Virus record (IMG/VR): IMGVR_UViG_3300031857_001395
Coordinates: 1-23,795 of that record
DNA length: 23,795 nucleotides
Strand: one strand, 5' to 3'
DNA from: a virus
Made by a program: the position numbers and the translations under genes. Shown here piece by piece: positions 1,036-23,118 of this stretch (the first letter of the stretch is position 1; each line of letters begins with the position of its first letter). A model generated the notes under the pieces. The model searched no databases. It was not told the DNA's origin and worked only from the letters and a program-made list of their open reading frames with translations.

Positions 1036-1365
1036 TTTGGAAACGTCAACCAACAGTGCTTGACATTTTGCACCAAGCACTTGACAAACGGCCTGTCTGG
1101 TGTTACCAGCCATAATCCACATGCCCCGTTTTCCTTTGAGGATTATGGGCATGGGCAGCGTTGCGCCTGTTTGCAAACCCTGCACAATGCGTTGAACGTC
1201 TCTGGGACGTTGATAGCTGCTGACCATATCCTCAATGTCTTCAATGGTGTCGTGTTCAGTCATGTTCTGCACTGCACCAATGGTGTGTGGATCCACCGTG
1301 CGAGCCGTGTCCAATGCTTGGCGGAACTGTTCAACATCAGTAAAAATGGGCCATCTAAAACCCAT
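1033..1365 (-). CDS. ParB/sulfiredoxin-fold domain protein, 110 aa
   Basis: The C-terminal half (about residues 68-107) has the ParB-like pattern: a hydrophobic strand (LPMPIILK), a WIMAGNTRQ turn equivalent to the GHRR/GNTR box of ParB-like domains, then an Ala/Gly helix and a LLVDV strand. Stand-alone ParB-like domains are common in T4-type phages; their roles range from DNA nuclease/partition folds to modification enzymes, so the activity is open. ATG 1365 lies inside the end of the upstream 52-aa gene (11-bp overlap) with no ribosome site, pointing to translational coupling. The N-terminal 60 residues are helical, acidic and unrecognised. Confidence 0.75.
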   Translation of the reverse strand: MGFRWPIFTDVEQFRQALDTARTVDPHTIGAVQNMTEHDTIEDIEDMVSSYQRPRDVQRIVQGLQTGATLPMPIILKGKRGMWIMAGNTRQAVCQVLGAKCQALLVDVSK

Positions 1366-1513
1366 TTGTTTGGCTTTGCAGCTTGCGTTTCAGCTCTTGT
1401 GCATTTTGCTTTTCGCCTGCTGTGGTTGCTGGATCAGCAATCATAGCATCCAGTCCGTCTATTTTACGAAATAGATCAACGGCTGTGACTTCTAGTAGTG
1501 CAGATATTTTCAT
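1355..1513 (-). CDS. Small hypothetical protein, 52 aa
   Basis: ATG 1513 (MKISALLEVTAVDLF) to TAG 1355. The frame is open further upstream to 1576, but that part lies in the tRNA-like RNA at 1525-1666, so the internal ATG was chosen. The start is 11 nt after the 3' end of that RNA and has no Shine-Dalgarno, so translation may begin on an RNA freed by tRNA-type processing. The peptide looks like two amphipathic helices ending in a lysine/glutamine-rich tail. It overlaps the ParB-like gene by 11 bp. Function unknown. Confidence 0.6.
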   Translation of the reverse strand: MKISALLEVTAVDLFRKIDGLDAMIADPATTAGEKQNAQELKRKLQSQTNGF

Positions 1514-1524
1514 GCAGTTATTTA

Positions 1525-1666
1525 TGCTAACCGCAGGATTCGATACCTGCTCCAGTTTGCGCTCGGCCCCGCACAAACCAGCCTATGGCTATGTCTCACA
1601 TCCTCTAGCCTTCGACTTTGTGAGAGTAGTTCCAACTCTAAGTGTGTCCTTCCACACCGGGTTAGC
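1525..1666 (-). ncRNA. 142-nt tRNA-like RNA with large internal insertion
   Basis: The ends pair exactly like a 7-bp tRNA acceptor stem (GCTAACC at 1666-1660, GGTTAGC at 1532-1526) with discriminator A. Inside are a D-arm-like hairpin (GTGT, loop with two GG pairs, ACAC), an AGAGT/ACTCT hairpin with a 7-nt loop, and next to the 3' strand a T-arm-like hairpin (GCAGG/CCTGC) whose loop TATCGAAT is 8 nt instead of 7. Between these lies about 70 nt that fold into further hairpins, including GTTTGTGC/GCGCAAAC. No CCA is encoded. The 7-nt loop TGGAACT lacks U33, so no amino acid is assigned. It is too short and has no tag ORF for tmRNA. Confidence 0.55.
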
Positions 1667-1952: not shown

Positions 1953-2615
1953 TTACTTAAAACTTATTTTTCTGCCTTCGAACCAACCAACAGGCAAAGG
2001 GTCACTCTTTTTTATCTTCATACTTCTTTTTTCTTCTAACGAAAAAACCCATCTAGTGTTATATTGGCTGTTGCCAGAGCCTTTTTGGTGTACTGATGAA
2101 TTCTTCCCTATTGCGGTTTTTGTTTCTTCAGTATGGTTCTTGCCTTTAAAATAACCCTCATGACCTTTCAATGATTTTGAAATTTTTTCATTAATGCTTT
2201 TAGCATAATTAGGGTCATTCTGTCTTCGTATAGTCTGAGTTTGCCTACCTCTTATAAAATTGTCCTTAACATTTGGTGTTGATCCGTTATTTCCGTAAAT
2301 ATTTTTACCAGTAGTGTTTACAAAGTCCCAGCCACCTTGACCACCTTGACCACCTTGTTTTAGGTTGTAAGTATTTTGATCAGCAACAAATTGCTCATTA
2401 ACAATTTCACGTTCTTTAGCTGACATGTCTGTTGCATTGTCAAAAATATATAGTATTTCTTTTTCGAAGTTCTCTATACCATACTTGTTTTGAGAATAAG
2501 TTAAATGTTTTCCAGAACCCATGTAACCATCATTGATGTCTTTTGTTTTATGACATCCAATGTAGACTTTATTGTTAATTTTGTTTGTAACTTTGTAAAC
2601 GGTATAATACATCAT
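1953..2615 (-). CDS. GIY-YIG homing endonuclease, 220 aa
   Basis: The N-terminus carries the GIY-YIG signature (TVY at residues 5-7, VYIG at 17-20), then the conserved KYGIENF segment leading to the acidic ENFEKEIL region expected to hold the catalytic Glu. The C-terminal part has Gly/Lys-rich NUMOD3-like DNA-binding repeats and ends with the NTRWVFS..GW pattern common in phage Seg-type endonucleases. These enzymes cut related tRNA or gene loci and spread their own gene. It sits between tRNA-Gln and tRNA-Asn, is AT-richer than its neighbours, and has a perfect late box TATAAATA five bases before ATG, with no Shine-Dalgarno. The second ATG (2612) is an alternative start. Confidence 0.93.
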   Translation of the reverse strand: MMYYTVYKVTNKINNKVYIGCHKTKDINDGYMGSGKHLTYSQNKYGIENFEKEILYIFDNATDMSAKEREIVNEQFVADQNTYNLKQGGQGGQGGWDFVNTTGKNIYGNNGSTPNVKDNFIRGRQTQTIRRQNDPNYAKSINEKISKSLKGHEGYFKGKNHTEETKTAIGKNSSVHQKGSGNSQYNTRWVFSLEEKRSMKIKKSDPLPVGWFEGRKISFK

Positions 2616-2620
2616 ACTTG

Positions 2621-2628
2621 TATTTATA
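2621..2628 (-). promoter_or_regulatory. T4-type late promoter TATAAATA
   Basis: Perfect TATAAATA on the minus strand, 5 nt before ATG 2615. In T4 late promoters this box spans -13 to -6, so the A of ATG would be +1 (leaderless). Confidence 0.85.
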
Positions 2629-2654
2629 CCGGTTCGAGACTTTAAAATTTTAAT

Positions 2655-2678
2655 TGGGGTATAATTTCTTATACCCCA
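2655..2678. other. 10-bp inverted repeat hairpin after tRNA-Asn
   Basis: A perfect 10-bp stem (TGGGGTATAA/TTATACCCCA) with 4-nt loop lies between the tRNA-Asn 3' end and the endonuclease promoter. It is followed on the minus strand by an A/T-rich stretch (AATTAAAATTTT), not a pure U tract, so it is either a weak terminator or a processing/RNA-stability hairpin. Confidence 0.6.
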
Positions 2679-2682
2679 GATG

Positions 2683-2770
2683 CTCCGGGGGTAGGACTCG
2701 AACCTACGATGGGAGATAAACTCCTCCTGATTAACAGTCAGGCGCCTGCTACCAACTCGGCGACCCCGGA
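2683..2770 (-). tRNA. tRNA-Asn(GTT) with extra variable arm
   Basis: Acceptor TCCGGGG/CCCCGGA, discriminator G, anticodon stem CCTGA/TCAGG with loop CTGTTAA, T-arm GTAGG/CCTAC. The variable region is 18 nt and forms a stem (GGAG/CTCC), like a class II tRNA, which is abnormal for Asn. No CCA is encoded (GCA follows). Confidence 0.9.
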
Positions 2771-2779
2771 ATGAAACTT

Positions 2780-2857
2780 TGGCGTCGATGACGGGGATCG
2801 AACCCGTGTATGACCTGAGTGAAAGTCAGGTGGCTTAACCAACTTGCCAACATCGAC
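2780..2857 (-). tRNA. tRNA-Glu(TTC)
   Basis: Acceptor GTCGATG/CATCGAC, discriminator G, CCA encoded, anticodon loop CTTTCAC, T-loop TTCGATC, normal variable loop. Confidence 0.94.
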
Positions 2858-2870
2858 GAAACTTTGAAAG

Positions 2871-2908
2871 CAGGAGTGTAGTGGCTTAACCAATTTGCCT
2901 ACACCCAC
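2871..2908 (-). pseudogene. tRNA 5'-half remnant
   Basis: Acceptor-like GTGGGTG, TA, and a good D-arm (GGC, loop with TTGG, GCC) followed by the start of an anticodon stem (CTACA). The sequence then stops matching a tRNA and runs into tRNA-Glu. No matching 3' half (CACCCAC) was found. Confidence 0.65.
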
Positions 2909-2929
2909 TTATAATTCTTTAAAACTTGA

Positions 2930-3020
2930 TCCTGGGAGCGGACCTTGAACCCGCATCAGTTAGCTTTGAACTAGCACCCAATTAGTGCCCTGGTTTTTGC
3001 CATTGTTAAACTACCCCAGA
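2930..3020 (-). tRNA. tRNA-like gene, anticodon uncertain, with extra hairpin
   Basis: Acceptor TCTGGGG/TCCCAGG (two wobble pairs), discriminator A, D-arm GTTT/AAAC with ATGGC in the loop, T-arm GCGGG/TCCGC with TTCAAGG. Between D and T arms there are two hairpins: GGCAC/GTGCT with loop TAATTGG (A at position 33), and GCTAG/CTAAC (one mismatch) with loop TTCAAAG, which would read CAA (Leu). So the anticodon cannot be assigned safely. At 91 nt it is about 17 nt too long for class I. No CCA is encoded. Confidence 0.7.
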
Positions 3021-3301
3021 TATTGGATTCTCAAGTTCTGGAACTGTGATTTCACCTTCACCGGCTCGTCTGGTGAAATTAGGAATAGTCACTGTAATCG
3101 ATGATATTCATATTCCCTCAAATTGGCTCCGGGTCACCTTCTCCCGAAATCCCAGGTTACTTGCGCCCACAAATGGTATTTGTGCCTGGCCCGCTGTTTG
3201 TAAGGTATTGAGCCCCCAACTCACTATTCGCTAACAGGACTTTTGTACAGCATCCTGATGGTACTCAATTTTATCTGTGATCGACCTGCTATGATCAATA
3301 A
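3021..3301. other. Gene-free stretch with several RNA hairpins
   Basis: No convincing ORF on either strand. On the minus strand there are perfect or near-perfect hairpins: CACAAAT/ATTTGTG (3-nt loop), ATTTCACC/GGTGAAAT, GGAATA/TATTCC, CAGGA/TCCTG and a longer-range ATTGAG/CTCAAT pair. This is more structure than usual for spacer, so it may be a non-coding RNA or a decayed tRNA/intron segment. No family recognised. Confidence 0.4.
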
Positions 3302-3390
3302 TGGTGGAGCAGGAGTGATTCGAACACTCATACCCGCAAGGGGCGCCCGGGTTACAGCCGGGTACAGACACCAGTCTCTGCAACTGCTCC
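3302..3390 (-). tRNA. tRNA-Tyr(GTA)
   Basis: Acceptor GGAGCAG/CTGCTCC, discriminator A, CCA encoded, anticodon stem CCCGG/CCGGG with loop CTGTAAC. Long class II variable arm, which is normal for bacterial Tyr tRNA. Confidence 0.95.
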
Positions 3391-3408
3391 AAAAATGCTA
3401 AATTAAAA

Positions 3409-3486
3409 TGGTCGGGGCGGCAGGATTCGAACCTGCGACCTTCTGCTCCCAAAGCAGACGCGATAGCCGGGCTACGCTACGCCCCG
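3409..3486 (-). tRNA. tRNA-Pro(TGG)
   Basis: Acceptor CGGGGCG/CGCCCCG, discriminator A, CCA encoded, anticodon stem TCTGC/GCAGA with loop TTTGGGA, T-arm GCAGG/CCTGC. Second proline tRNA of the cluster. Confidence 0.96.
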
Positions 3487-3495
3487 AAAAATTGT

Positions 3496-3574
3496 TGGTG
3501 GAGGTAAAGGGATTTGAACCCTTCTGATATCCGCATTGCAAGTGCGGTAAACACCCCAAGCATTTCCTACCCCC
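3496..3574 (-). tRNA. tRNA-Ala(TGC)
   Basis: Acceptor GGGGGTA/TACCTCC, discriminator A, CCA encoded, anticodon stem CCGCA/TGCGG with loop CTTGCAA, T-arm AAGGG/CCCTT. Its 5' acceptor strand overlaps the end of the HNH gene: the TAG stop of that gene uses acceptor bases. Confidence 0.94.
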
Positions 3575-4415
3575 AAAAATTAATTAGTCCATTTTTGTTC
3601 CATTCATCAATTCTTTGAAGCAACTCATCTAATGTAATGGAACATTTTGTTCTTTTTTTCTGATTTTGATTTTGCAACATTAGTTCACAATTAGCAGGAT
3701 GTTTTATAATGTTGGGAGAAATTTTATTTTTCCATCCCCATTCAACGCTTACTTTGTGATCTCGTGCAACTCCTGTTAGGTTATTACCTCTATTTGAGGC
3801 CTTATACCAACCATGTTCTTGTATTAGGTCTGTATTAAACTCTCCAGGAAAATCTTTTATACTAAACTCAAACTGACATTCTTTTCTGTATTTTCTTTTC
3901 TCGCAAAGATGAGCTCTGCGGCGTTGTCTAGTTTGTAATTTTGCGATTTCTTTACATTCATTTGAGCAAACTCTTCGATGCTTGTGAGCAAAAGAAGTTT
4001 GGCAAACCTTACATTGTTTGAACTTTTGAACAGTCCTCCCTCTTTTTATAAGAGATTCGATTTGACTCTCACTGATTTTTTGTTTTGTCTTGTCTGAATG
4101 AATTCTTGTATTCGAACAAGATCTAGAACAAAAATATTTTTCTTTTAAAGGAAAAGAAAGTTCTGGTTCAATTACCTCAATCGACTTGTTACAGACCAAA
4201 CATGAAACGGTAAACGTGTTCATTTCTCCATTTTTCTTTTCAAAAGCAGCTTTGATTTGTAACTTGTGGCGAGTCTTCCATTCTTCTGTATGGTATTTTC
4301 CATTAAAACCGGAAGAATATTTTGATTTAACTTCAAGTGACCCATGTGCTCGTTCGTAATGAGTATGAATCCCTTTAATTGAAAATTGTTTTTGACAAAC
4401 AATACAGCTGACCAT
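3567..4415 (-). CDS. Zinc-finger HNH homing endonuclease, 282 aa
   Basis: Three Cys-rich zinc-binding elements come first: a C2H2-like finger at residues 4-24 (CIVC...HTHYERAH), CLVC...CSRSC at about 72-103, and CKVC...CSNEC at about 135-157. The C-terminal third has an HNH-type core (RDHKV, then HPANCELM, then NQNQKK, about residues 218-255) like many free-standing phage endonucleases. It should cut tRNA-cluster DNA of related phages. The start has AGGAG and a late box (CATAAATA) upstream. The stop lies inside the 5' acceptor strand of tRNA-Ala, so the mRNA would carry the downstream tRNA and be cut by RNase P at its very end. It is AT-rich compared with its neighbours, in line with mobile origin. 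Confidence 0.92.
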   Translation of the reverse strand: MVSCIVCQKQFSIKGIHTHYERAHGSLEVKSKYSSGFNGKYHTEEWKTRHKLQIKAAFEKKNGEMNTFTVSCLVCNKSIEVIEPELSFPLKEKYFCSRSCSNTRIHSDKTKQKISESQIESLIKRGRTVQKFKQCKVCQTSFAHKHRRVCSNECKEIAKLQTRQRRRAHLCEKRKYRKECQFEFSIKDFPGEFNTDLIQEHGWYKASNRGNNLTGVARDHKVSVEWGWKNKISPNIIKHPANCELMLQNQNQKKRTKCSITLDELLQRIDEWNKNGLINFWG

Positions 4416-4434
4416 TTTAAAAATCTCCTACATT

Positions 4435-4442
4435 TATTTATG
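4435..4442 (-). promoter_or_regulatory. Late promoter-like box CATAAATA
   Basis: One mismatch to TATAAATA, followed by a 19-nt leader with AGGAG before the HNH start at 4415. Confidence 0.6.
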
Positions 4443-4589
4443 CTTGGTGGAGTATTTTTAAAACGAACTCGCTGATTTTTATGTACTAATCTTTGCTATC
4501 TGTTTTGTTCGACTTTTCATCTACTGAACGCTGTGGATAGCACACAGCACATTGTCCACCACTTGCTTATTTAGCAGCCCGGTGTCAAC

Positions 4590-4781
4590 TCAAGCTAAAT
4601 TTTCAAAATATCTCTCTGCGTTGGATTTGAATATGGAAGAATACAACTCGTGCATGTATTCTTTCTGCTGTCTCAGCACCACATAATGTTCAAAGTAAAA
4701 TCCGTTCTTGTACTTAACGTCCAACACCAATTGTGCATTGGCTGTGAAACGAAGCAGCACTGGATAATCTTTTTGCATCAT
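4590..4781 (-). CDS. Hypothetical protein, 63 aa, leaderless
   Basis: ATG 4781 to TGA 4590. A compact alpha/beta-looking small protein with many aromatic residues (YFENLA at the end, NGFYFEHYVV in the middle). No family recognised. The start lies exactly six bases after the -10 box (TAAACT) of an early promoter, so the A of ATG is the predicted +1 and there is no room for a ribosome site. The second codon is also ATG, so translation could begin at either. It sits alone between the HNH gene and a field of tRNA fragments. Confidence 0.7.
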   Translation of the reverse strand: MMQKDYPVLLRFTANAQLVLDVKYKNGFYFEHYVVLRQQKEYMHELYSSIFKSNAERYFENLA

Positions 4782-4787
4782 GTATTT

Positions 4788-4816
4788 AGTTTAGTGCATT
4801 TTTGCATCTTTGTCAA
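4788..4816 (-). promoter_or_regulatory. Early promoter for a leaderless gene
   Basis: Minus strand -35 TTGACA (4816-4811), 17-bp spacer, -10 TAAACT (4793-4788). ATG begins 7 nt downstream of the -10. Confidence 0.8.
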
Positions 4817-4868
4817 CTGTTTTGTGACTTTCGTCGTTCACTGTCTATTGCAGCTTGCAGACACCCTA

Positions 4869-4896
4869 TGGGCCACCGCCTGGGAATTAAACCCAG
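4869..4896 (-). pseudogene. tRNA 3'-half remnant
   Basis: T-stem CTGGG/CCCAG with loop TTTAATT (TTC lost), acceptor 3' strand GCGGTGG, C, then CCA. No 5' half (CCACCGC) lies upstream. Confidence 0.6.
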
Positions 4897-4915
4897 CGCC
4901 ACAAAACAGTTGAAA

Positions 4916-4943
4916 TGGTAGTCCCGAGAGGATTCGAACCTCT
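4916..4943 (-). pseudogene. tRNA 3'-end remnant, duplicate of tRNA-Arg end
   Basis: T-arm AGAGG/CCTCT with loop TTCGAAT, acceptor CGGGACT, A, CCA. It nearly repeats the 3' end of the adjacent tRNA-Arg (4954-4981), so it is likely a relic of unequal recombination. Confidence 0.75.
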
Positions 4944-4953
4944 GAGATTAAAA

Positions 4954-5037
4954 TGGTAGTCCCGGGAGGAATCGAACCTCATGCCGTCCACCTAACTCTA
5001 AGGATCGGTTTAGAAGACCGATGTCAGGCTCGGGACC
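4954..5037 (-). tRNA. tRNA-Arg(TCT), D-arm lost, variable region enlarged
   Basis: Acceptor GGTCCCG/CGGGACT, discriminator A, CCA encoded, anticodon stem TCGGT/ACCGA with loop CTTCTAA, T-loop TTCGATT. Only nine bases (AGCCTGACA) lie between acceptor and anticodon stem, so there is no D-arm. The region after the anticodon stem is about 23 nt and contains AGAGTTAGGTGGAC, which looks like a D-loop segment. Either a rearranged functional tRNA or a damaged gene. Confidence 0.75.
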
Positions 5038-5067
5038 AAAACTTAACTTAAATCTTACTTACGAAAT

Positions 5068-5100
5068 CGTCAATTCTCATTGTAGCTGAGCTACGGAGGC
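5068..5100 (-). pseudogene. tRNA 5'-half remnant
   Basis: Acceptor GCCTCCG, TA, GCTCAG and a partial D-arm, then unrelated sequence. No CGGAGGC 3' strand follows. Confidence 0.6.
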
Positions 5101-5108
5101 AAAAGTGT

Positions 5109-5184
5109 TGGTGCGCCCGCCCGGGTACGATCCGGGGACCCTCTGATTAAAAGTCAGATGCTCTACCAACTGAGCTACGAGCGC
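5109..5184 (-). tRNA. tRNA-Lys(TTT)
   Basis: Acceptor GCGCTCG/CGGGCGC, discriminator A, CCA encoded, anticodon stem TCTGA/TCAGA with loop CTTTTAA, normal variable loop. The T-loop is ATCGTAC (T54 replaced by A). Confidence 0.93.
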
Positions 5185-5260
5185 ATGATGTTGTTTGTAG
5201 CGTCCCTTGCATCGCTTCTTTGGGAGTGATCATGCCCAAACAACAGAGACATGATCGAAA

Positions 5261-5335
5261 TGGTAGGGTGTACGGGATTCGAACCCGTGTCGAGAATTTG
5301 AAGGACTCCAATGCTAACCGCTGCACCAACACCCC
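5261..5335 (-). tRNA. tRNA, anticodon TTC (or TCA), uncertain
   Basis: Good cloverleaf: acceptor GGGGTGT/ACACCCT, D-arm GTGC/GCAT, T-arm ACGGG/CCCGT, discriminator A, CCA encoded. The best-paired anticodon stem (GGAGT/ATTCT) gives loop CCTTCAA, anticodon TTC (Glu) but with C at position 33. Shifting one base gives loop CTTCAAA with U33 and anticodon TCA (UGA-reading) but two mismatches in the stem. Confidence 0.75.
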
Positions 5336-5365
5336 ATAAAAATTGTGGATGATTATCGAGAATTA

Positions 5366-5513
5366 CGTCTCTGAAGGAATTGAACCTTCGACCAGTTCAG
5401 GTTGGTTTGCATCCAGCAATTTAACCTATAACCATCATCAGCGTATCCTGCCCAGAGTCGAACGGGCGTTGACCATCACTTGAACCAACCTGCACCGGCA
5501 GTTTTGGATACTT
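5366..5513 (-). pseudogene. Two overlapping tRNA-like remnants
   Basis: Segment 5443-5513: ends GTATCC/GGATAC, T-arm-like GCCCG/TGGGC with an 8-nt loop starting TTCGA, a CTGC/GCAG mini-hairpin and GTTGG/TCAAC with a 12-nt loop. Segment 5366-5389: T-arm GAAGG/CCTTC with TTCAATT and acceptor strand AGAGACG, whose best partner is CGACTCT at 5454-5460 (one mismatch). A 10-bp inverted repeat (5398-5407 and 5483-5492) links the two. Neither makes a convincing tRNA. Confidence 0.45.
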
Positions 5514-5521
5514 AAAAATTG

Positions 5522-5607
5522 TGGAGGAGGATGATAGCATCGAACTATTATCCCGAGGGATACTACAGTTTTCAAGACTGTGTGGGGAGCCAACCCCAGC
5601 ATCCTCC
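5522..5607 (-). tRNA. tRNA-Ser(TGA)
   Basis: Acceptor GGAGGAT/ATCCTCC, CCA encoded, anticodon stem ACAGT/ACTGT with loop CTTGAAA, class II variable arm with ATCCC/GGGAT stem, as expected for Ser. The discriminator is T instead of the usual G and the D-loop is short. Confidence 0.9.
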
Positions 5608-5614
5608 AAAATTG

Positions 5615-6262
5615 TTAATTTTCGTACATTGAAGTATAGTTTTTGCCATACTTCCTAATCACGTATTCTAAAATATCTTTGAGATCATTTGCATACAAAA
5701 CTGTTATGTCTGGATTACAACTTAACTTGGCTTCCCATTGTTCAGTTTTATAGCCTTTGATTTCAATTAATTTTCCCTCGACAATAAAATCTGGAATGTA
5801 ATTCTTAACTTCACCATTCCAAACATACTGTCTTTTTTCTAAATTTCTTTCAATAGAAATGTTGTGATCTAGACAATAAATCACATACGCTAGTTCCCAA
5901 CTACTATCGCAAAAGAAATTTTTGAACCATCCTTTTTTGCCTCTTCCTGAGCCTTTTACATAACCGCCTAACTTTCGACGTTTAGCGACGTCTCTTAGTT
6001 TGTCTTTGCGTTGTTGTTCTTTTTCAGGATCTAAAGATTTTCCCGGAGAATTTGATTTTCTTCCTTTTAATTTCTTTGAAATGTCTGGCCGTAATCTCCC
6101 AGATAATTTAGAAGCAATTGAAGCTATAGAGGCATTAGTAAATTTAGTTTGCCCCTCATTCCAAGCAGGAATTCTGTTTGTATTTTTCTTACATTTAGAT
6201 TGATGAATAGACAAAAGACCTGCATTTTTACAAATGCGATCACAAAATTGACAAATATGCAT
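5615..6262 (-). CDS. PD-(D/E)XK-type homing endonuclease with zinc finger, 215 aa
   Basis: The N-terminus has a zinc finger (CQFC at residues 4-7, then HQSKC). A middle region is basic (KKLKGRKS, RGKKGW). The C-terminal half matches free-standing phage PD-(D/E)XK nucleases: CDSSWELAYVIY helix, then IPDFIV (catalytic Asp) and LIEIKGY (Glu-X-Lys) near residues 165-180. It is the third nuclease fold found inside this tRNA cluster. ATG 6262 has AAAGGAAA and a perfect TATAAATA 20 bases upstream, so it is a late gene with a normal leader. Assignment of the fold rests on the motif spacing; Vsr-like alternatives are possible. Confidence 0.85.
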   Translation of the reverse strand: MHICQFCDRICKNAGLLSIHQSKCKKNTNRIPAWNEGQTKFTNASIASIASKLSGRLRPDISKKLKGRKSNSPGKSLDPEKEQQRKDKLRDVAKRRKLGGYVKGSGRGKKGWFKNFFCDSSWELAYVIYCLDHNISIERNLEKRQYVWNGEVKNYIPDFIVEGKLIEIKGYKTEQWEAKLSCNPDITVLYANDLKDILEYVIRKYGKNYTSMYEN

Positions 6263-6282
6263 GAGTGTTTCCTTTCATACAT

Positions 6283-6290
6283 TATTTATA
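6283..6290 (-). promoter_or_regulatory. T4-type late promoter TATAAATA
   Basis: Perfect box on the minus strand, followed by a leader with AAAGGAAA before ATG 6262. Confidence 0.85.
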
Positions 6291-6354
6291 CAATCAAGAC
6301 CAGTCGTCCTCCATGGACGGCACCCGCTATTAAACTTGTTTTGTTACTCTACCC

Positions 6355-6485
6355 AGAGTGTATTGATCAAACTTTGATGTCGAACGTTGGATCTCGACCT
6401 GTTTGCATTTGAGACATCACGTGCTGAGTAGCGAGGAAGACCGTGGTCAGCTGCCTATCTCAACACCAAAGTATCAATACACTCT
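6355..6485 (-). ncRNA. Structured RNA candidate, 131 nt
   Basis: The ends form a perfect 13-bp stem (left arm 6355-6367, right arm 6473-6485), continued after a 3-nt bulge by six more pairs (6371-6376 with 6467-6472). Inside, GATGTC (6376-6381) pairs with GACATC (6413-6418) and smaller hairpins follow. There is no ORF. It lies just downstream of two leftward early promoters (6543 and 6723), so the minus strand is the likely RNA. It is not a tRNA and I recognise no family. Confidence 0.55.
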
Positions 6486-6542
6486 GATAGTTTGTTTGTT
6501 TTGGTAATATTCTGTTGTCAATGAACTGTGCTAACAAATACT

Positions 6543-6571
6543 ATTTTAGCATCTGCTAACGTTGCTGTCAA
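6543..6571 (-). promoter_or_regulatory. Early promoter upstream of structured RNA
   Basis: Minus strand -35 TTGACA (6571-6566), 17-bp spacer, -10 TAAAAT (6548-6543). Predicted +1 near 6536; first transcribed element is the 131-nt hairpin RNA. Confidence 0.8.
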
Positions 6572-6610
6572 CCTGTTTAACAGCTTGACTTTAAAGGACT
6601 CAGAATTGAA

Positions 6611-6660
6611 CTAAACTTTAAAGTTTAGCGGCAGGCCTGTTTTACCGTTTCGGTTCCTGC
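6611..6660. other. 18-bp palindrome plus adjacent hairpin
   Basis: A perfect palindrome (6611-6628, CTAAACTTTAAAGTTTAG) lies next to GCAGG/CCTGC (6631-6635 with 6656-6660), which encloses an ACCG/CGGT hairpin. Both lie in the leader between two early promoters. They could be an operator or an RNA structure; no terminator U tract is seen. Confidence 0.5.
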
Positions 6661-6722
6661 TCTTCACCTTATTCTGTATTCTGTCAGTTTCTGCTGAGTT
6701 GTTAGCTGTCCTCTACTCTTTT

Positions 6723-6751
6723 AGTATAGCAAGCTCTACCGAGCCCGTCAA
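6723..6751 (-). promoter_or_regulatory. Early sigma70-type promoter
   Basis: Minus strand -35 TTGACG (6751-6746), 17-bp spacer, -10 TATACT (6728-6723), then AAAAGAGTA. It starts right after the terminator at 6755-6789. Confidence 0.88.
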
Positions 6752-6754
6752 CAC

Positions 6755-6789
6755 AAAAACAAAAAAGCCTGCAAATTTCTTTGCAGGCT
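6755..6789 (-). terminator. Rho-independent terminator
   Basis: 10-bp stem AGCCTGCAAA/TTTGCAGGCT with 4-nt loop, followed on the minus strand by TTTTTTGTTTTT. It ends the operon 6815-9462. Confidence 0.93.
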
Positions 6790-6814
6790 GTTGGAGTGTA
6801 CTTTATGAATACGT

Positions 6815-6907
6815 TTATCCAACATCACCTGCATAGATGGGTTCTCTATTGGCCCAATTTGGCTGGGCGGAAAATGAAACCATTGAGTGATGTTTTGCTC
6901 TGTGCAT
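6815..6907 (-). CDS. Small late peptide, 30 aa, leaderless
   Basis: ATG 6907 to TAA 6815, 30 codons (begins MHRAKHHSMVSF, ends IYAGDVG). It stands exactly five bases downstream of a perfect TATAAATA box, so transcription and translation would start at the same base. The terminator follows 26 nt later, so this is a complete minimal late gene. The peptide is polar with a histidine-rich start and no membrane segment. Too short to assign to a family; without the promoter I would not have called it. Confidence 0.55.
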   Translation of the reverse strand: MHRAKHHSMVSFSAQPNWANREPIYAGDVG

Positions 6908-6912
6908 GTTTT

Positions 6913-6920
6913 TATTTATA
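6913..6920 (-). promoter_or_regulatory. T4-type late promoter TATAAATA
   Basis: Perfect box, 5 nt before ATG 6907; predicted leaderless start. Confidence 0.8.
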
Positions 6921-6942
6921 CCAGACAGACCACAAAGATCGA

Positions 6943-7308
6943 TTATTCTGACAGGATTTTCCAAAAATTATGATCGTGATCAACTTCAAATAGTGCGTCG
7001 GATGATCCGCTGCGGATTAACTTGGAATACTTAAAGCCGTGTGTTATTAGAAAACTCTGTATGAGATTGGTATCCAAAACAGTTTTTTGGCGCAACTCTA
7101 TCACTTGTTTTGTTTTCCAGCCCCGCTTTGCGTCGTCCCAAACCAGTGCGCCACGTTCATTGCGGTCGTATTCTTCCTTAACAAATTCACATGTGAGCTT
7201 GCTCACGCTCACCTTCAATCGCCAGCTCTTGCCATGCCGAAAAATGGCAGCACGAAATCCGTTTTCACGCAAAGCCTTTTCCAATGTTGTTTGCTGTTCT
7301 TTGGTCAT
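6943..7308 (-). CDS. Hypothetical protein, 121 aa, last gene of early operon
   Basis: ATG 7308 overlaps the TGA of the upstream gene (ATGA), so it is translationally coupled. Two similar-looking halves are possible: residues 5-45 (LRENGFRAAIFRHGKSWRLKV) and 80-118 (LITHGFKYSKLIRSG...FEVDHDHNFWKIL), each with a helix-GF-strand pattern. A segment KTVLDTNLI (about residues 73-81) faintly recalls the TVFDLI motif of its neighbours, but the match is poor. The protein is basic. Function unknown; it belongs to the dCMP deaminase operon and probably acts early. Confidence 0.8.
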   Translation of the reverse strand: MTKEQQTTLEKALRENGFRAAIFRHGKSWRLKVSVSKLTCEFVKEEYDRNERGALVWDDAKRGWKTKQVIELRQKTVLDTNLIQSFLITHGFKYSKLIRSGSSDALFEVDHDHNFWKILSE

Positions 7309-7568
7309 TTGCTAATAGTTGAAATCATATCAAACACTGTGCCAATATCATACGTGGCGCGATAAAAGGTAGAGCCTTTTGTTTGCCTTGCGTGAGGTAA
7401 ATATTCTCGAATGAGCTCATCAAAAATAGCACGTCGATCTCTGCCATAATCTCTTGCATATGCACTGAGCACAGTCACGTAATATCTGCCTTTTCTTTGG
7501 CGAAATGTACAAATACAGTTATAAACTGGTGCCCAGCGAAGCAAATCTCCAAAGGCGCCCGGTAGCAT
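7305..7568 (-). CDS. Hypothetical protein with C-terminal TVFDMI motif, 87 aa
   Basis: ATG 7568 lies three bases after the TAA of the upstream gene and the stop overlaps the next start. The N-terminal 70 residues look beta-rich and basic (CICTFRQRKGRYYVTVLSAYARDYGRDRR split here only by my description of its order), followed by YDIGTVFDMISTISK. The YDIGTVFDMI block matches YNIGTVFDLI in the upstream neighbour and FDLGTAFDLI in the one before, so these three are paralogues. No enzyme motif is seen. The shared tail suggests binding to a common partner, but that is inference. Confidence 0.85.
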   Translation of the reverse strand: MLPGAFGDLLRWAPVYNCICTFRQRKGRYYVTVLSAYARDYGRDRRAIFDELIREYLPHARQTKGSTFYRATYDIGTVFDMISTISK

Positions 7569-7571
7569 AAT

Positions 7572-7952
7572 TTATTCGTCGCCATCCTGCTTAACAGTTA
7601 AGCTACCCGATGGGCGGGATGCTGTAATCATTGGTTGAACACCCACAATTTGACTGGCAATCACCGTAGGCATCACACTTCTGAAAATGTTCATACTAAA
7701 ATCCAGAACCGGAGTGGGATTTGCTATCAGATCAAACACTGTGCCTATATTGTAGGTTAATTCTGTATCAGTCCGGCGTATCAGTCGGGCAGCAGGATAA
7801 TACTGTTTGATTCTTCGAGTCCAGCCACTCTCTGTTATTGAATTCACACCTGTGATTTTTACATAATTCCATTTCCTTTTACTGTAAAAGGTGTATTCGA
7901 ACCCCAATCGTTCTACGACACTTTTGAAGTCTTGCGGCATATCAATGAACAT
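7572..7952 (-). CDS. Hypothetical protein with internal GTVFDLI motif, 126 aa
   Basis: ATG 7952 to TAA 7572. Residues 1-70 resemble the neighbours: a helix (FKSVVERLGFEYTF), beta strands, a basic IKQYYPAARLIRR segment, then YNIGTVFDLI at about 68-77. Unlike its paralogues it continues for about 50 residues with a hydrophobic, Val/Ile/Pro-rich extension ending in an acidic QDGDE. The start follows AAGAAAG. An in-frame ATG at codon 5 (7940) is an alternative. Member of the operon family; function unknown. Confidence 0.85.
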   Translation of the reverse strand: MFIDMPQDFKSVVERLGFEYTFYSKRKWNYVKITGVNSITESGWTRRIKQYYPAARLIRRTDTELTYNIGTVFDLIANPTPVLDFSMNIFRSVMPTVIASQIVGVQPMITASRPSGSLTVKQDGDE

Positions 7953-7973
7953 GTTAGCTTTCTTTTTCGGCAG

Positions 7974-8270
7974 TCAATGGGAAGTAAGGCAATAATATAT
8001 CCCTGCGTCTATGTCGTTGTTTGTTTCCTGTGCAGTATTTACTATCAAGTCAAACGCTGTGCCTAGATCAAATACTAGATAGGAGTTAAAGTGAGATTGA
8101 CGCAGTTCTTTGTATTTTGATTTGGGATAGTATCGCCAAACTAAATCTTTTACGCTCACAATATAACCATTCACTGAAACGCAAACAATCAGTTGATACC
8201 GATGATCAGCGGTGGTGTGATACTCGAAAGTCCAGCCATATTGTTCGCAGGCTTTTTCAAATGGTATCAT
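7974..8270 (-). CDS. Hypothetical protein with GTAFDLI motif, 98 aa
   Basis: ATG 8270 sits five bases after the dCMP deaminase stop with GAGGGG as ribosome site. The fold pattern repeats that of the next gene: helix (FEKACEQYGWTFEYH), strands, WRYYPKSKYKELRQ, then FDLGTAFDLI at about residues 70-79, followed by a short polar tail. The YYP-K/R region before the motif matches QYYPAARL of the 126-aa protein. Clearly a paralogue; no catalytic motif visible. Confidence 0.85.
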   Translation of the reverse strand: MIPFEKACEQYGWTFEYHTTADHRYQLIVCVSVNGYIVSVKDLVWRYYPKSKYKELRQSHFNSYLVFDLGTAFDLIVNTAQETNNDIDAGIYYCLTSH

Positions 8271-8275
8271 TGTTG

Positions 8276-8740
8276 TTAAAACCCCTCAAAATCCACGCCA
8301 CGCATGGTGACGCCGCATTCTGCAAACATCTGCTGAGTACGCTCAATGTGTTCTTGCCATTGCGGTTTTTGCACCCAGGCAGCTACTGCTTGATTGCTGT
8401 TGACCACTTCTCTGATACCCACACTCACAATGGCACGGGCGCAATCCACACAGGGCAAGCTGGGGATGTAGATGGTGCAGTTGTTGAGACTGGTACCCAT
8501 TCTTGCTGCATTGTAAATTGCGTTGCGTTCAGCATGTTCAATCCACCAATACTTTTCCGGACGTTCTTGCCGTTCAGGCACACAGTCATTTAAACCACGT
8601 ACAAAACTGTTATAGCCGGTGGTGCGAATCTCGCGGTCCGGTCCCACAATCACACAACCAATCTGAGTGTGCGGGTCCTTGCTCTTGGTGCTCACTGTGC
8701 GCACCATGTTTAAAAAGTAATGGTCCCAGCTGGGTGTCAT
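8276..8740 (-). CDS. Deoxycytidylate (dCMP) deaminase, 154 aa
   Basis: Zinc-dependent cytidine/deoxycytidylate deaminase: HAERNAIYNAA at about residues 89-99 gives the zinc ligand His and catalytic Glu, and PSLPCVDCA (about 113-121) gives the two Cys ligands (PCxxC). The N-terminal CVIVGPDREIRTTGYNSF strand is typical. It converts dCMP to dUMP, supplying thymidylate synthesis for phage DNA, as T4 gp cd does. It starts at ATG 8740 overlapping the upstream stop (ATGA) with AGGAG inside that gene. It is the only recognisable enzyme of the operon, so its neighbours may act in nucleotide metabolism or host take-over at the same early time. Confidence 0.96.
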   Translation of the reverse strand: MTPSWDHYFLNMVRTVSTKSKDPHTQIGCVIVGPDREIRTTGYNSFVRGLNDCVPERQERPEKYWWIEHAERNAIYNAARMGTSLNNCTIYIPSLPCVDCARAIVSVGIREVVNSNQAVAAWVQKPQWQEHIERTQQMFAECGVTMRGVDFEGF

Positions 8741-8922
8741 TGACTTAGCTCCTGTAAAATATCAAAAACTGTTTTGGGTAAGGGCTCGATGGCACCTCGC
8801 ACAGTATGATCTTCGCATAAACATTTATACCAACCCGCGGCATCTTGATATTTTTCAAAGTCTGATGTTTTGCGATAACCCCATCTATCGTACCAGATCA
8901 CTCTCCAGCATACTGGTATCAT
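8737..8922 (-). CDS. Hypothetical protein with C-terminal KTVFDILQ motif, 61 aa
   Basis: ATG 8922 overlaps the previous stop (ATGA) and its own stop overlaps the deaminase start. Trp/Tyr-rich N-terminal half (WRVIWYDRWGYRKTSDF), a helix carrying YQDAAGWYKCL, and the tail LPKTVFDILQELSQ. The layout (strand, GY/GW turn, EAxxWY helix, P-x-TVFD-I-I/L) is the same as in the 62-aa protein next to it, so the two are tandem paralogues. Function unknown. Confidence 0.85.
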   Translation of the reverse strand: MIPVCWRVIWYDRWGYRKTSDFEKYQDAAGWYKCLCEDHTVRGAIEPLPKTVFDILQELSQ

Positions 8923-9107
8923 TGGCCACCTCGCTTGATTAGGTCAAACACAGTCAACGGTTTTGGTTCCCAAACATAAGTGGATTTTTTTAGTTCATGA
9001 TATCGATTCCAGGCCTCAGCCTCATTGTCAAACTCATCAGTGTTCCAACCCCCGTACCCAGCCACAGTTCTGTAAAATACTTGCCAACGAACAAAGTGAT
9101 CTGTCAC
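8919..9107 (-). CDS. Hypothetical protein with C-terminal LTVFDLIK motif, 62 aa
   Basis: Starts with GTG at 9107 that overlaps the TGA of the gene before (GTGA). Sequence order: WQVFYRTVAGYGGWNTDEFDNEAEAWNRY, reading as strand, Gly/Trp turn, acidic helix, then EPKPLTVFDLIKRGGQ. Paralogous to the 61-aa product downstream and, more distantly, the 58-aa product upstream (also GGWGG and EPATVFDII). Translationally coupled on both sides. No known family. Confidence 0.83.
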   Translation of the reverse strand: MTDHFVRWQVFYRTVAGYGGWNTDEFDNEAEAWNRYHELKKSTYVWEPKPLTVFDLIKRGGQ

Positions 9108-9280
9108 TGTGCCTCCTGAATTATATCGAATACGGTGGCTGGTTCGATTTTTACACTAAGACCACTCATGCTTTTTTTAATCATTGAACAAAAGGTATTA
9201 GCTAGCTTTTCATTTTCAAAATAATACACCAACTTTTTGCCGCCCCACCCACCTATATCTACAATCACTCTGGTAATCAC
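9104..9280 (-). CDS. Hypothetical protein with C-terminal TVFDIIQ motif, 58 aa (GTG start)
   Basis: It begins with GTG 9280, which overlaps the TGA of the upstream zinc protein, and ends with TGA overlapping the next GTG. The ribosome site is GAAAGAGAG. It reads as an IVDIGGWGGKKLVYYF strand region, a Lys-rich helix and the tail EPATVFDIIQEAQ. The coupling on both sides and the shared tail make it a real member of the family even though it is short and has a non-ATG start. Confidence 0.8.
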   Translation of the reverse strand: MITRVIVDIGGWGGKKLVYYFENEKLANTFCSMIKKSMSGLSVKIEPATVFDIIQEAQ

Positions 9281-9462
9281 GGGTACTCTCTTTCTGAGAC
9301 CAGAGTCAGAGTATAGGTTCGAACCAAAACTGACCCCCTGGGTCGCTTTTTGGTATAAACCAAATCATTAACGCATCCTGGATTGCATGTGCCAGAATTT
9401 CCAATTGCGCCATTGCACTGTTTGCAAATAAAAACATGATGAAACAACAAGTCTGACTGCAT
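9277..9462 (-). CDS. Zinc-ribbon-like small protein, 61 aa, first gene of operon
   Basis: ATG 9462 to TGA 9277. CKQC (about residues 13-16) and CNPGC (26-30) make a plausible four-cysteine zinc site in the N-terminal half; the rest is basic (YTKKRPRGSV) and ends SEREYP. The stop overlaps the next GTG. Start lies eight bases after the -10 of the early promoter at 9471-9499, so the mRNA leader is two bases or none. Opposite-strand frames here are shadows. Function unknown; the operon order suggests co-expression with dCMP deaminase. Confidence 0.72.
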   Translation of the reverse strand: MQSDLLFHHVFICKQCNGAIGNSGTCNPGCVNDLVYTKKRPRGSVLVRTYTLTLVSEREYP

Positions 9463-9470
9463 TTAGTAAT

Positions 9471-9499
9471 ATTATAGCAATAATTACAACAGAACTCAA
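9471..9499 (-). promoter_or_regulatory. Early promoter of the 6943-9462 operon
   Basis: Minus strand -35 TTGAGT (9499-9494), 17-bp spacer, -10 TATAAT (9476-9471). Its -35 shares base 9499 with the rightward late box. Confidence 0.82.
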
Positions 9500-9506
9500 A
9501 TAAATA
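9499..9506 (+). promoter_or_regulatory. Late promoter-like box AATAAATA
   Basis: One mismatch to TATAAATA, exactly 5 nt before ATG 9512 and no Shine-Dalgarno; predicted leaderless start of the virion-type gene. Confidence 0.7.
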
Positions 9507-9511
9507 TTCAT

Positions 9512-10822
9512 ATGAGTTTACCAAACAGAACCAACAGCACCAATTATGAGCATCCGCAGGAAACCAATCTGCTGAATTTGCACAGGGCAATGAGCTACAA
9601 CAGTCAGGGTGAGCCTGTGCTGCGAACCACATCGGGCAGCAGTGCAACCACCGGTGATGCGTTTGGTAGACTGAGAATTGCTGCACCTTTCACACTGTTT
9701 GATAGCGTTCACCGATACCAGGACAATGCCAAAGCTGAAGTGTTTACTGCTGGCGGCGGCACCAGCACACACGACACCAACAGCAGCAGCATATTGATGG
9801 CAGTGGGCACTGCAAAAGATGCTGAAGTGATTAGAGAAACCAGCCGTGTGTTTGCCTATCAACCGGGCAAAAGTTTGCAAATGATGATCACCTTCACCAT
9901 GTCACCGGCCAAAACCAATCTCAGACAACGAGCTGGACTGTTTGACGCACAGAATGGAGTTTACATACAGTTAAAGGACAATGTGCTGAGTTTTGTGTTG
10001 CGCAGTTATTCAACTGGTGTTTTGGTGGAAACTGTGGTACCACAGAGCCAATGGAATGTGGAGCGATTGGATGGCGCAGGTACCAATCCCACAGTGTTAG
10101 ACATCACCAAATCACAAATTTTTTGGTTGGACATAGAATGGTTGGGTGTGGGCACAGTGCGTTGCGGATTTGTGATCAATGGTGAATTCATTCACTGTCA
10201 CAGTTTTCATCATGCCAATCTGCAAACCAGCACATACATGACCACTGCCTGTTTGCCGGGCAGAGTGGAAATTAAAAACGTGGACACCACCGCCAGTGCT
10301 AGCACCTACAGACAGATTTGTTTTACTGTGATCAGTGAAGGTGGGTATGAACTCAGAGGCCGACCCAGAAGCGTGGATCACGCTTTGACTGCGCCCTATC
10401 GTATGAGCAGTCCGGGTGTCACTTATCCACTGCTGAGCATCCGACTGAAAAGTGATCGATTGGGTGCCATTGTGGTACCTAAAAATTTCACCATAGCAGT
10501 TACTTCATCGGGCAGCTTTAGATACGGATTGATCAGCAGAGGCGTTACATCAGGCGGGTTATGGGTTAGTGCTGGTACCGACAGTCATGTTGAATACAAC
10601 TTAACAGCAACCAGTTTGTCCAGCGGCACAGTGTTTGAAACTGGATACATTATCAGCAGCAATCAGAGTTCAGCCGCTCCCAGCTTGCAGGAATATCCAT
10701 TCAAGTTTCAACTGGAGCGAAACACGTTCACTCCAGTTGCTTATGAGTTTATAATTGCAATGGTTTGTACTGGCAACAATCAGGACGTTTTTGCCAGTGT
10801 CAACTGGGAAGAAATTACCTAA
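9512..10822 (+). CDS. Virion-type structural protein, 436 aa (T4-type marine phage family)
   Basis: One of the few rightward genes. The N-terminus is Asn/Thr/Ser-rich. Residues about 45-70 carry ATTGDAFGRLRIAAPFTLFDSVHRY (broken by me from a longer stretch); the pattern FGRLR-x-x-x-PFTLFDS-x-x-RY is one I recall from structural proteins of marine T4-type phages. The rest is Gly/Ser/Thr-rich, all-beta in appearance, like tail-fibre or capsid-decoration proteins, with no transmembrane segment. Late expression fits: AATAAATA five bases before ATG. Its end overlaps the convergent exonuclease gene by 8 bp. Exact virion position (fibre, neck or head) cannot be told. Confidence 0.75.
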   Translation: MSLPNRTNSTNYEHPQETNLLNLHRAMSYNSQGEPVLRTTSGSSATTGDAFGRLRIAAPFTLFDSVHRYQDNAKAEVFTAGGGTSTHDTNSSSILMAVGTAKDAEVIRETSRVFAYQPGKSLQMMITFTMSPAKTNLRQRAGLFDAQNGVYIQLKDNVLSFVLRSYSTGVLVETVVPQSQWNVERLDGAGTNPTVLDITKSQIFWLDIEWLGVGTVRCGFVINGEFIHCHSFHHANLQTSTYMTTACLPGRVEIKNVDTTASASTYRQICFTVISEGGYELRGRPRSVDHALTAPYRMSSPGVTYPLLSIRLKSDRLGAIVVPKNFTIAVTSSGSFRYGLISRGVTSGGLWVSAGTDSHVEYNLTATSLSSGTVFETGYIISSNQSSAAPSLQEYPFKFQLERNTFTPVAYEFIIAMVCTGNNQDVFASVNWEEIT

Positions 10823-11380: not shown

Positions 11381-11388
11381 TATAAATA
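11381..11388 (+). promoter_or_regulatory. T4-type late promoter TATAAATA
   Basis: Perfect rightward box; leads into a 19-aa leader ORF and then the HNH gene at 11451. Confidence 0.8.
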
Positions 11389-11391
11389 AGA

Positions 11392-11451
11392 ATGCCGATC
11401 GCGATAGTCTCAATATCCATCGGCTCTATAACTATACGGAGTTACAGCTAA
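11392..11451 (+). CDS. Possible 19-aa leader peptide
   Basis: ATG 11392 lies 3 nt after TATAAATA and the ORF (MPIAIVSISIGSITIRSYS) ends with a TAA that overlaps the ATG of the HNH gene (TAATG). It is Ile/Ser-rich. The arrangement suggests translational coupling, but the HNH gene also has its own CGGAG site, so the peptide may be chance. Confidence 0.35.
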   Translation: MPIAIVSISIGSITIRSYS

Positions 11452-12202
11452 TGTATTTACAAAACAAATACTTACAATGGTATTATAACATAATAAATCG
11501 TGCAAAATCAAGACATTTAGAAGATTCTGTGTACACTGAACAGCATCATATTTTGCCTAAGAGCTTGGGTGGCAACAATTCTAAATCCAATCTTGCAACC
11601 TTAACCGGACGAGAACATTTTATATGTCATTTATTATTACCAAAATTCACAACTGGAATAGCAAAAAGTAAGATGATACATGCTGCTTGGAGAATGTGTT
11701 GTAGAGGATCTAAGCATGACAAAGGTTTTAAAATTACCTCAACTATATATGATTTACTACGGCGACAGCGTAGTGCATATCTCCAAACATTAAAAGGGCA
11801 AAACAGCCCAATGTTCGGAAAAAAGACTGGAAGAACTTCTGCCGACTTTACAAACGATTGGAAAGAAAAAATATCTGCAGCAAATAAAGGCCGAGTTGCT
11901 TGGAACAAAGGTGTACCTCGTACAGAAGATGAAAAAGCAAAAATGTCAGCTACACGAAAAGCAAAAGCAAAAGCAAAGGCAAAAGCAGCTGACCCAACTT
12001 GGAACTGGAATGTAAGACCAAAATGCAGTCCTGAAAAAGCACAAAAAATCAAAGAAGCCAATACTGGAAAAAGTGGGTTCATAAATTAGATCCGTTACAA
12101 CGAAGATATGTTCCTCAACAAACATATGAAATATTATGTTCCCAAGGTTGGATTCCTGGTATCGGACCAAAAATCACCAGTTTCACCAAACCACCTGTTT
12201 GA
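11451..12202 (+). pseudogene. HNH homing endonuclease with frameshift near 12071
   Basis: The first frame (11451-12089, 212 aa) has an HNH core EQHHILPKSLGGNNSKSN at about 30-47 with NLATLTGREHFICH after it, then NUMOD3-like repeats (GQNSPMFGKKTGRT, NKGVPRTEDEKAKM) and a Lys-Ala run from a 6-base microsatellite. It ends early at GKSGFIN. The -1 frame from the AAAAA run at about 12069-12073 continues KWVHKLDPLQRRYVP... to TGA 12202, ending QGWIPGIG, the usual C-terminus of such enzymes. One A has probably been lost, giving a truncated protein. Late box and leader ORF upstream. The restored end overlaps the convergent gene by 20 bp. Confidence 0.85.
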
Positions 12203-12831: not shown

Positions 12832-12839
12832 TATTTATG
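12832..12839 (-). promoter_or_regulatory. Late promoter-like box CATAAATA
   Basis: One mismatch to the consensus. It overlaps two bases of the tRNA-Val CCA end and is 4 nt before ATG 12827. Confidence 0.5.
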
Positions 12840-17034: not shown

Positions 17035-17042
17035 TATTTATG
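17035..17042 (-). promoter_or_regulatory. Late promoter-like box CATAAATA
   Basis: One mismatch to consensus, 8 nt before ATG 17026. Predicted leader of about 3 nt. Confidence 0.55.
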
Positions 17043-17163: not shown

Positions 17164-17171
17164 TATTTATA
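17164..17171 (-). promoter_or_regulatory. T4-type late promoter TATAAATA
   Basis: Perfect box; predicted +1 about 17158, five bases before the tRNA-Ser 5' end. Together with the early promoter at 17184 it gives early and late transcription of tRNA-Ser and the glycosyltransferase. Confidence 0.85.
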
Positions 17172-23110: not shown

Positions 23111-23118
23111 CATAAATA
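23111..23118 (+). promoter_or_regulatory. Late promoter-like box CATAAATA
   Basis: One mismatch to TATAAATA, 15 nt before ATG 23134, with GGGAGAAA between. Confidence 0.6.

Follow-up and report, generated by a model that had tools for sequence, protein, structure and literature searches.

In a 23,795-base IMG/VR virus fragment (IMGVR_UViG_3300031857_001395, hereafter the window), late-promoter boxes of the type known from bacteriophage T4 recur exactly 5 nt ahead of ATG start codons. We consider it probable, at about 0.85 and judging from sequence, that a gp55-family late sigma factor recognizes these boxes and that, at some of the genes, transcription would be fixed to start on the A of the ATG, giving leaderless mRNAs. 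The observations behind this proposal are the exact 5-nt spacing, its excess over shuffled sequence and over other spacings, its conservation among orthologues with differing spacers, the absence of Shine-Dalgarno (SD) sequences, and a pyrimidine at position −1. The proposal takes three steps from these, namely that +1 would be the A of the ATG, that gp55 would read the boxes, and that ribosomes would start on a bare AUG. Such promoters stand beside ordinary SD-led late promoters in the same genomes; the leaderless late class put forward in a first-pass annotation of the window is thus supported at the sequence level, but as one of two classes.

Late-Promoter Boxes and Start Codons in the Window

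In T4, the first base of the 8-bp late box is numbered −13 (PMC2988020), so that the box ends at −6 and the arrangement of box, five nucleotides and ATG (16 bases in all, here called N5) puts the A of the ATG at +1. We write d for the number of nucleotides between box and ATG, and NATAAATA for the box TATAAATA with its first base (−13) free. Counted on both strands, the window holds 11 NATAAATA boxes, four of which have an ATG at d=5 (2615, 6907, 9512 and 1513); the start at 1513 had been missed by the first-pass annotation. Exact TATAAATA-N5-ATG is found at 2613-2628 and 6905-6920, both on the minus strand, while the third site, 9499-9514 on the plus strand, has the box AATAAATA with a single mismatch at −13. 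Of the three sites cited earlier (2615, 6907 and 9512), all have the 5-nt spacing and two have the exact box. A at −13 is common in T4 itself, occurring in 9 of the 50 late sites listed (PMC2988020). The remaining boxes also sit ahead of genes or a tRNA: at d=4 (12827, the near fit pointed out earlier, with CATAAATA plus 4 nt), d=8 (17026), d=15, 19 and 20 (23134, 4415 and 6262, respectively), d=3 (a 19-codon open reading frame, ORF), and before a tRNA-Ser, without an ATG. When the sequence was read by eye, no SD was visible upstream of the starts at 2615, 6907, 9512 and 12827, in agreement with the annotation for the first three.

The spacing had been called unlikely to arise by chance, and 2000 dinucleotide shuffles of the window bear this out. 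TATAAATA-N5-ATG was observed twice (shuffle mean 0.015, maximum 1), NATAAATA-N5-ATG four times (mean 0.077, maximum 2; 0/2000 shuffles reached four), and NATAAATA-N4..6-ATG six times (mean 0.206, maximum 4). A weaker test, in which the whole 16-mer was allowed up to two mismatches, gave 16 matches against a mean of 7.63, a count reached by 1 of 100 shuffles.

Spacing in Related and Named Phages

The window has three near-identical IMG/VR contigs (G001, G002 and G003, with main blocks at 98.7-99.8% identity), and its DNA-level match to the named phages of the collection comprises nothing beyond a tRNA. In 33 related or near-identical virus records, exact TATAAATA-N5-ATG has 17 occurrences and the reversed pattern 3, and 6 of the 17 come from the window and its near-identical contigs. 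When NATAAATA-N5-ATG was compared with N6 on both strands of named phages, the counts were 9 v 1 in HTVC008M, 8 v 1 in Mosig, 4 v 2 in Melnitz and S-SRM01, 3 v 1 in P-SSM2, 2 v 1 in P-SSM4, 1 v 2 in S-CREM1, 10 v 7 in SCTP-2, 0 v 1 in Cr30 and, for the pattern only, 2 v 0 in T4 and S-PM2; both spacings were at 0 in KVP40, S-RIM12, phiM7, phiM9, PhiW-14 and Aeh1. An alphaproteobacterial host was considered as a common factor and set aside: the Sinorhizobium phages phiM7 and phiM9 and the Caulobacter phage Cr30 have no N5 sites, and host class alone is therefore insufficient as an explanation.

Requiring the ATG to open an ORF of at least 30 aa separates these phages further. Starts at d=5 then follow 9 of 45 boxes in HTVC008M, 7 of 56 in Mosig and 3 of 42 in Melnitz. 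By contrast, T4 late genes are SD-led, with no start at d=5 and 27 at d=14-30 among 65 NATAAATA boxes, and for the 59 boxes of S-PM2 the corresponding counts are 1 and 18. The T4 analogy of the first-pass annotation therefore carries over for the numbering (box −13 to −6, A at +1) but not for the N5 placement. Two candidates were rejected as N5 phages, S-SRM01, which is pattern-positive yet has 1 of 96 boxes heading such an ORF at d=5, and SCTP-2 (440 kb), in which the ten N5 sites are matched by the seven N6 sites and by a reversed control (8). In the Pelagibacter phage HTVC008M, starts at d=3 to 7 number 0, 0, 9, 0 and 1, and all nine N5 sites coincide with annotated coding sequence starts (Table 1). 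In the 60-107.5 kb part of Mosig, 6 of 7 N5 sites are annotated starts, including that of the gp2 DNA end protector; the site at 73459 is not.

Similar results were obtained with larger samples of IMG/VR loci. The 80 marine loci nearest to HTVC008M gp55 (622 kb, 212 NATAAATA boxes) have 47 starts of ORFs of at least 40 aa at d=5 and none at d=4 or d=6. Eighty loci around the G029-type major capsid protein of jumbo T4-like phages (902 kb, 223 boxes) have 46 starts at d=5, 6 at d=4 and none at d=6, with a second rise at d=17-27. A flat distribution of box-to-ATG distances, which the first-pass annotation had set against its own idea, is thus not seen in these relatives, where HTVC008M and both sets of 80 loci have a sharp peak at d=5.

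Conservation among orthologues bears on whether the arrangement could be accidental. In two orthologue families from the capsid loci, TAAATA-N5 stands ahead of 19 of 22 and 33 of 46 starts after removal of redundancy; the spacers differ in sequence, and all 52 have a pyrimidine at −1. In the second family, the box of four members lies 15-17 nt away instead, with an SD-like run in L388, L395 and L415 and none in L380 (read by eye). Boxes near start codons could be accidental in these AT-rich genomes, or could represent an AU-rich element that binds ribosomes and has no promoter function, and in SCTP-2 the N5, N6 and reversed counts are indeed alike. However, the dinucleotide shuffles and the exact spacing kept across variable spacers argue against this explanation, as do the boxes that precede tRNA-Ser and SD-led genes and the several N5 boxes of marine loci that come directly after terminator-like T-runs (read by eye); we regard it as very improbable.

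Signs of a Probable Transcription Start at the ATG

Start sites at N5 genes differ from others in two respects, when the comparison starts are the first ATG of each ORF, some of them wrong, and orthologues are not independent. A pyrimidine is present at −1 in 100 of 106 N5 genes and at 966 of 2074 other starts (Fisher p 4e-25), and an SD-like motif in 7 of 106 and 1084 of 2074, respectively (p 4e-23). In a hexamer scan that presupposed no motif, only SD hexamers exceeded TAAATA at d=5 in the window group (21 vs 2.8 expected), and the same signal was strong in HTVC008M, Mosig and Melnitz together (22 vs 3.6 expected). In T4, S-PM2 and S-SRM01 together it was absent among the best 22 hexamers listed. 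No −35-like signal was among the best 22 listed for the window group at distances of 0-24 (to about 30 nt upstream of the ATG). Among SD-led boxes, a purine occupies offset 5 in 43 of 46 cases in the pelagic set, as expected if +1 lies there, and in 25 of 32 in T4, S-PM2 and S-SRM01.

A rival reading takes the boxes for ordinary sigma-70 promoters that involve no late sigma, the −10 hexamer TATAAA lying 7 nt ahead of the ATG. TATAAA is contained in TATAAATA, so that both readings overlap, and leaderless sigma-70 genes exist in bacteria. In the two orthologue families, however, the box always ends in TA and its first letter varies, by the manner of selection as well as by spread, and TATAAT-type hexamers at d=6-8 are absent among the best 22 signals listed. 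HTVC008M, Mosig and Melnitz also follow NATAAATA, which is the published consensus, with its first base free, for late promoters of the cyanomyoviruses S-PM2 and Syn9 (PMC2984593). Host sigma-70 leaderless promoters in SAR11 were examined as a precedent and rejected: in four SAR11 genomes, TATAAT-N6-ATG is barely above the reversed control (38/35, 41/36, 31/27 and 25/20), and there is thus no clear host precedent. A sigma-70 origin of the pattern accordingly appears quite unlikely.

Several results weigh against a late-sigma start fixed on the ATG. Many rows of the locus samples are orthologous, so that their counts are not independent events, and the SD contrast is partly built in, since the box leaves little of the SD zone free. 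Without the ORF-length filter, the 80 marine gp55 loci have 53 ATGs at d=5, 38 at d=24 and 23 at d=6; those at d=24 and d=6 are provisionally taken for repeated orthologous sequence. In the hexamer scan of HTVC008M, Mosig and Melnitz, TAAATA at d=5 scores below a different non-SD hexamer, TATATT at d=0. The window and the near-identical G001-G003, all of them short fragments, yielded no gp55. Lastly, the boxes in 80 loci around the G004-type gp55 (1.06 Mb, 215 boxes) are nearly all SD-led; d=18 accounts for 25 starts and d=5 for 2. The last result had suggested that N5 spacing is clade-specific, which proved wrong: the gp55 of the 12 capsid contigs tested belongs to the G004-type family (the ten with a best match listed are 54-64% identical), and the capsid region of these contigs is N5-rich. 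Leaderless-type and SD-led late promoters therefore coexist in one phage group and differ by region.

Two further points against the proposal also favor a weaker version of it, in which the late promoters are real but the start lies a few bases off, so that the leader measures 1-10 nt, or an SD precedes the true start codon further downstream, and N5 is a mild preference. The window group has a looser spacing, with ORFs of at least 40 aa starting at d=4 (10), d=5 (20), d=6 (5) and d=7 (7), and within the window 12827 lies at d=4 and 17026 at d=8. In addition, SD-led boxes of the jumbo group have no purine peak at offset 5 (92/175), which leaves the start point less well supported in that group. 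Conversely, hardly any starts fall at d=4 or d=6 in the pelagic and capsid sets, the N5 ATGs of HTVC008M are annotated starts without exception, and the N-terminus of the window's virion protein, which begins at the N5 ATG of 9512, agrees with its homologues. We consider this version unlikely, and a start on the A of the ATG remains our preferred explanation.

Late Machinery and Ribosomal Protein bS21

The same 8-bp TATAAATA box is shared with the gp55/gp33/gp45 system of T4, and HTVC008M is annotated with gp55, a gp33-like putative late-promoter transcription factor and the gp45 clamp. Late-sigma family phrog_12791 is matched by 19 of 30 jumbo capsid contigs, among them G033, whose major capsid protein is 100% identical to that of G029. 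In G004, the closest large relative by the window virion protein (57%), gp55 lies just upstream of gp47/46 homologues. G004 also has in common with the window a head maturation protease (70.6%), and both G004 and G029 have T4-type gp23 and gp21 homologues, which bear on a tentative placement of the window in the T4 superfamily. From such relatives we infer that the window's own phage would possess late machinery of this kind. No gp55 was found in the examined pieces of G016, G021, G023, G024 and G029, and a search with the 17927-18646 protein for a further contig of the window's species carrying late machinery gave a known contig only. The gp55 of G004 (259 kb; L119 about 520-1500, contig 236.4-238.2 kb) apparently has an intein-like insertion, the gp55 match falling in the last part of a 615-codon frame; a frame of the same 615 codons in length in G044 matches gp55 in two separate pieces.

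Most N5-bearing genomes examined at length encode bS21. PF01165 is matched in G003 (from the window's species), G004, G016, G021, G023, G029, HTVC008M, Mosig, Melnitz and SCTP-2, but not in the 18 further records examined alongside them, the window included; among the 30 capsid contigs, most of them fragments, 4 match it. A requirement of N5 for bS21 was rejected, since the jumbo contigs G044 and G053 (318 and 345 kb) carry N5 boxes without a PF01165 match, which also sets them apart from known bS21 systems; SCTP-2 is the reverse exception, having bS21 without an N5 excess. In G003, bS21 (28791-29060) adjoins an HSP20-like protein (28245-28715; L060), and homologues of the two lie side by side in G029.

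Predicted Mechanism and Relation to Known Systems

In the mechanism we propose, RNA polymerase bearing gp55 would start on the A of the ATG and yield a messenger beginning 5′-AUG. This mRNA would lack an SD, its position being occupied by the late box, and N5 genes would be translated only from transcripts begun at the late promoter. For lack of a ribosome-binding site, RNA reading through from early promoters would go untranslated, and the genes would be strictly late. At 12827, where the box shares the CCA end of tRNA-Val, tRNA processing would additionally sever read-through RNA 11 bases before the ATG. In T4, hairpins in early transcripts mask the ribosome-binding sites of some late genes, whereas at N5 genes the site would be simply absent. 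A tentative and on balance doubtful extension is that the arrangement acts as a translation lock for late genes, with early read-through silent, only gp55-started RNA translated, and phage bS21 possibly tuning the ribosome to 5′-AUG messages late in infection; the link between bS21 and leaderless mRNAs is hypothetical. Phage bS21 has been tied to late-stage expression (PMC9723584), and the terms "promoter", "leaderless" and "start codon" have no occurrences in that paper.

Leaderless mRNAs of bacteria and phages likewise have a 5′-terminal AUG and no SD, the lambda cI mRNA being an example. The N5 arrangement differs in recurring as a rule, linked to a phage late-sigma box and to late genes, those of the virion among them, rather than at a single repressor gene. 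Phage transcripts are often leaderless according to work on AR9 (PMC5312081). For pelagimyophages, late-promoter prediction did not succeed (PMC7029224), a failure that the N5 arrangement may help explain, and for Melnitz 15 late promoters were reported, leaderless starts not being remarked on in the part of the report available (PMC9004378). We found no description of leaderless late mRNAs in T4-like phages in the open literature, as far as its accessible text goes; subscription journals and preprints lay outside the search, and an earlier description is possible. If the proposal is correct, promoter and translation start would be merged into a single 16-base element, and large, abundant aquatic phages (SAR11 myophages and jumbo T4-like phages) would have a second way to run late genes. 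Gene callers that expect an SD could misplace N5 starts, and the purpose of phage-encoded bS21 would become testable, through the preference of such ribosomes for 5′-AUG messages.

Genes Behind the Boxes and Other Features of the Window

The N5 starts of the window had been ascribed to three unrelated genes (Table 1). PHROG matches confirm this for the nuclease and the virion protein; the 30-aa peptide has no PHROG match, and its standing as a gene derives from the ORF and the box. In the near-identical contig G003, the box, distance and ATG of this 6907 ORF are retained despite a different spacer. In the 2615 ORF, a further ATG follows immediately (d=8), and the product is 43.8% identical to a T4 ORF at T4 71256-71927. 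The virion protein family, phrog_1645, occurs in 176 phage records, including HMO-2011 (podovirus-like); most are Synechococcus myoviruses, in which it sits amid T4-type tail and terminase genes. The 214-aa product of 12827 has a match neither in PHROGs nor in Pfam.

Table 1. Late-promoter boxes and associated ORFs of the window, and N5 starts of HTVC008M.
Feature	Position	Strand	Remarks
Window: box TATAAATA	2621..2628	-	d=5 before ATG 2615
Window: box TATAAATA	6913..6920	-	d=5 before ATG 6907
Window: box AATAAATA	9499..9506	+	A at -13; d=5 before ATG 9512
Window: box CATAAATA	1519..1526	-	d=5 before ATG 1513; box CA also 3′ end of tRNA-like fold
Window: box CATAAATA	12832..12839	-	d=4 before ATG 12827; overlaps tRNA-Val CCA end
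Window: box TATAAATA, leadered	6283..6290	-	ATG 6262 (215 aa) at d=20; AAAGGAAA ahead of ATG
Window: box CATAAATA, leadered	4435..4442	-	ATG 4415 (282 aa) at d=19
Window: box CATAAATA	23111..23118	+	ATG 23134 (60 aa) at d=15
Window: box CATAAATA	17035..17042	-	ATG 17026 (168 aa) at d=8
Window: box TATAAATA	17164..17171	-	10 nt ahead of tRNA-Ser (17059-17153)
Window: box TATAAATA	11381..11388	+	d=3 before 19-codon ORF 11392-11451
Window: homing endonuclease-like ORF, 220 aa, predicted leaderless	1953..2615	-	phrog_314; NUMOD3
Window: 30-codon ORF, predicted leaderless	6815..6907	-	ORF and box
Window: virion structural protein, 436 aa, predicted leaderless	9512..10822	+	phrog_1645
Window: 52-codon ORF, predicted leaderless	1355..1513	-	no Pfam match
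Window: 214-aa ORF, near-leaderless (N4)	12183..12827	-	no PHROG or Pfam match
HTVC008M: 2OG oxygenase	6280		N5 start
HTVC008M: CsgF	7562		N5 start
HTVC008M: tail tube cap	19456		N5 start
HTVC008M: baseplate wedge	31132		N5 start
HTVC008M: baseplate wedge initiator	49760		N5 start
HTVC008M: hypothetical	75559		N5 start
HTVC008M: regulator	142360		N5 start
HTVC008M: tape measure	16007	-	N5 start
HTVC008M: gp2 DNA end protector	18916	-	N5 start

The TAA stop of the 19-codon ORF overlaps the ATG of a homing endonuclease ORF (11451-12089). The combination of TATAAATA-N3-ATG and a short ORF directly ahead of a homing endonuclease ORF occurs both in the window (11381-11451) and in G003 (21175-21262), and the two copies are 81% alike.

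Other features of the window were also observed. A tRNA-like fold at 1524-1672 on the minus strand has an 8-bp acceptor-like stem, a T-arm-like hairpin and long extra arms (z −3.87) and ends in the CA of the CATAAATA box ahead of ATG 1513; it is not called by ARAGORN and has no Rfam match up to E=1. At 19064-20229 on the plus strand, a 45-68 nt element is present in 3-4 copies that lie between small ORFs and are spaced 274-583 nt apart. The stretch 14854-15408 on the minus strand encodes a protein with a peptide-chain release factor domain (phrog_3122), and the same strand carries 15 tRNA genes between 1678 and 17153, scattered among short ORFs.

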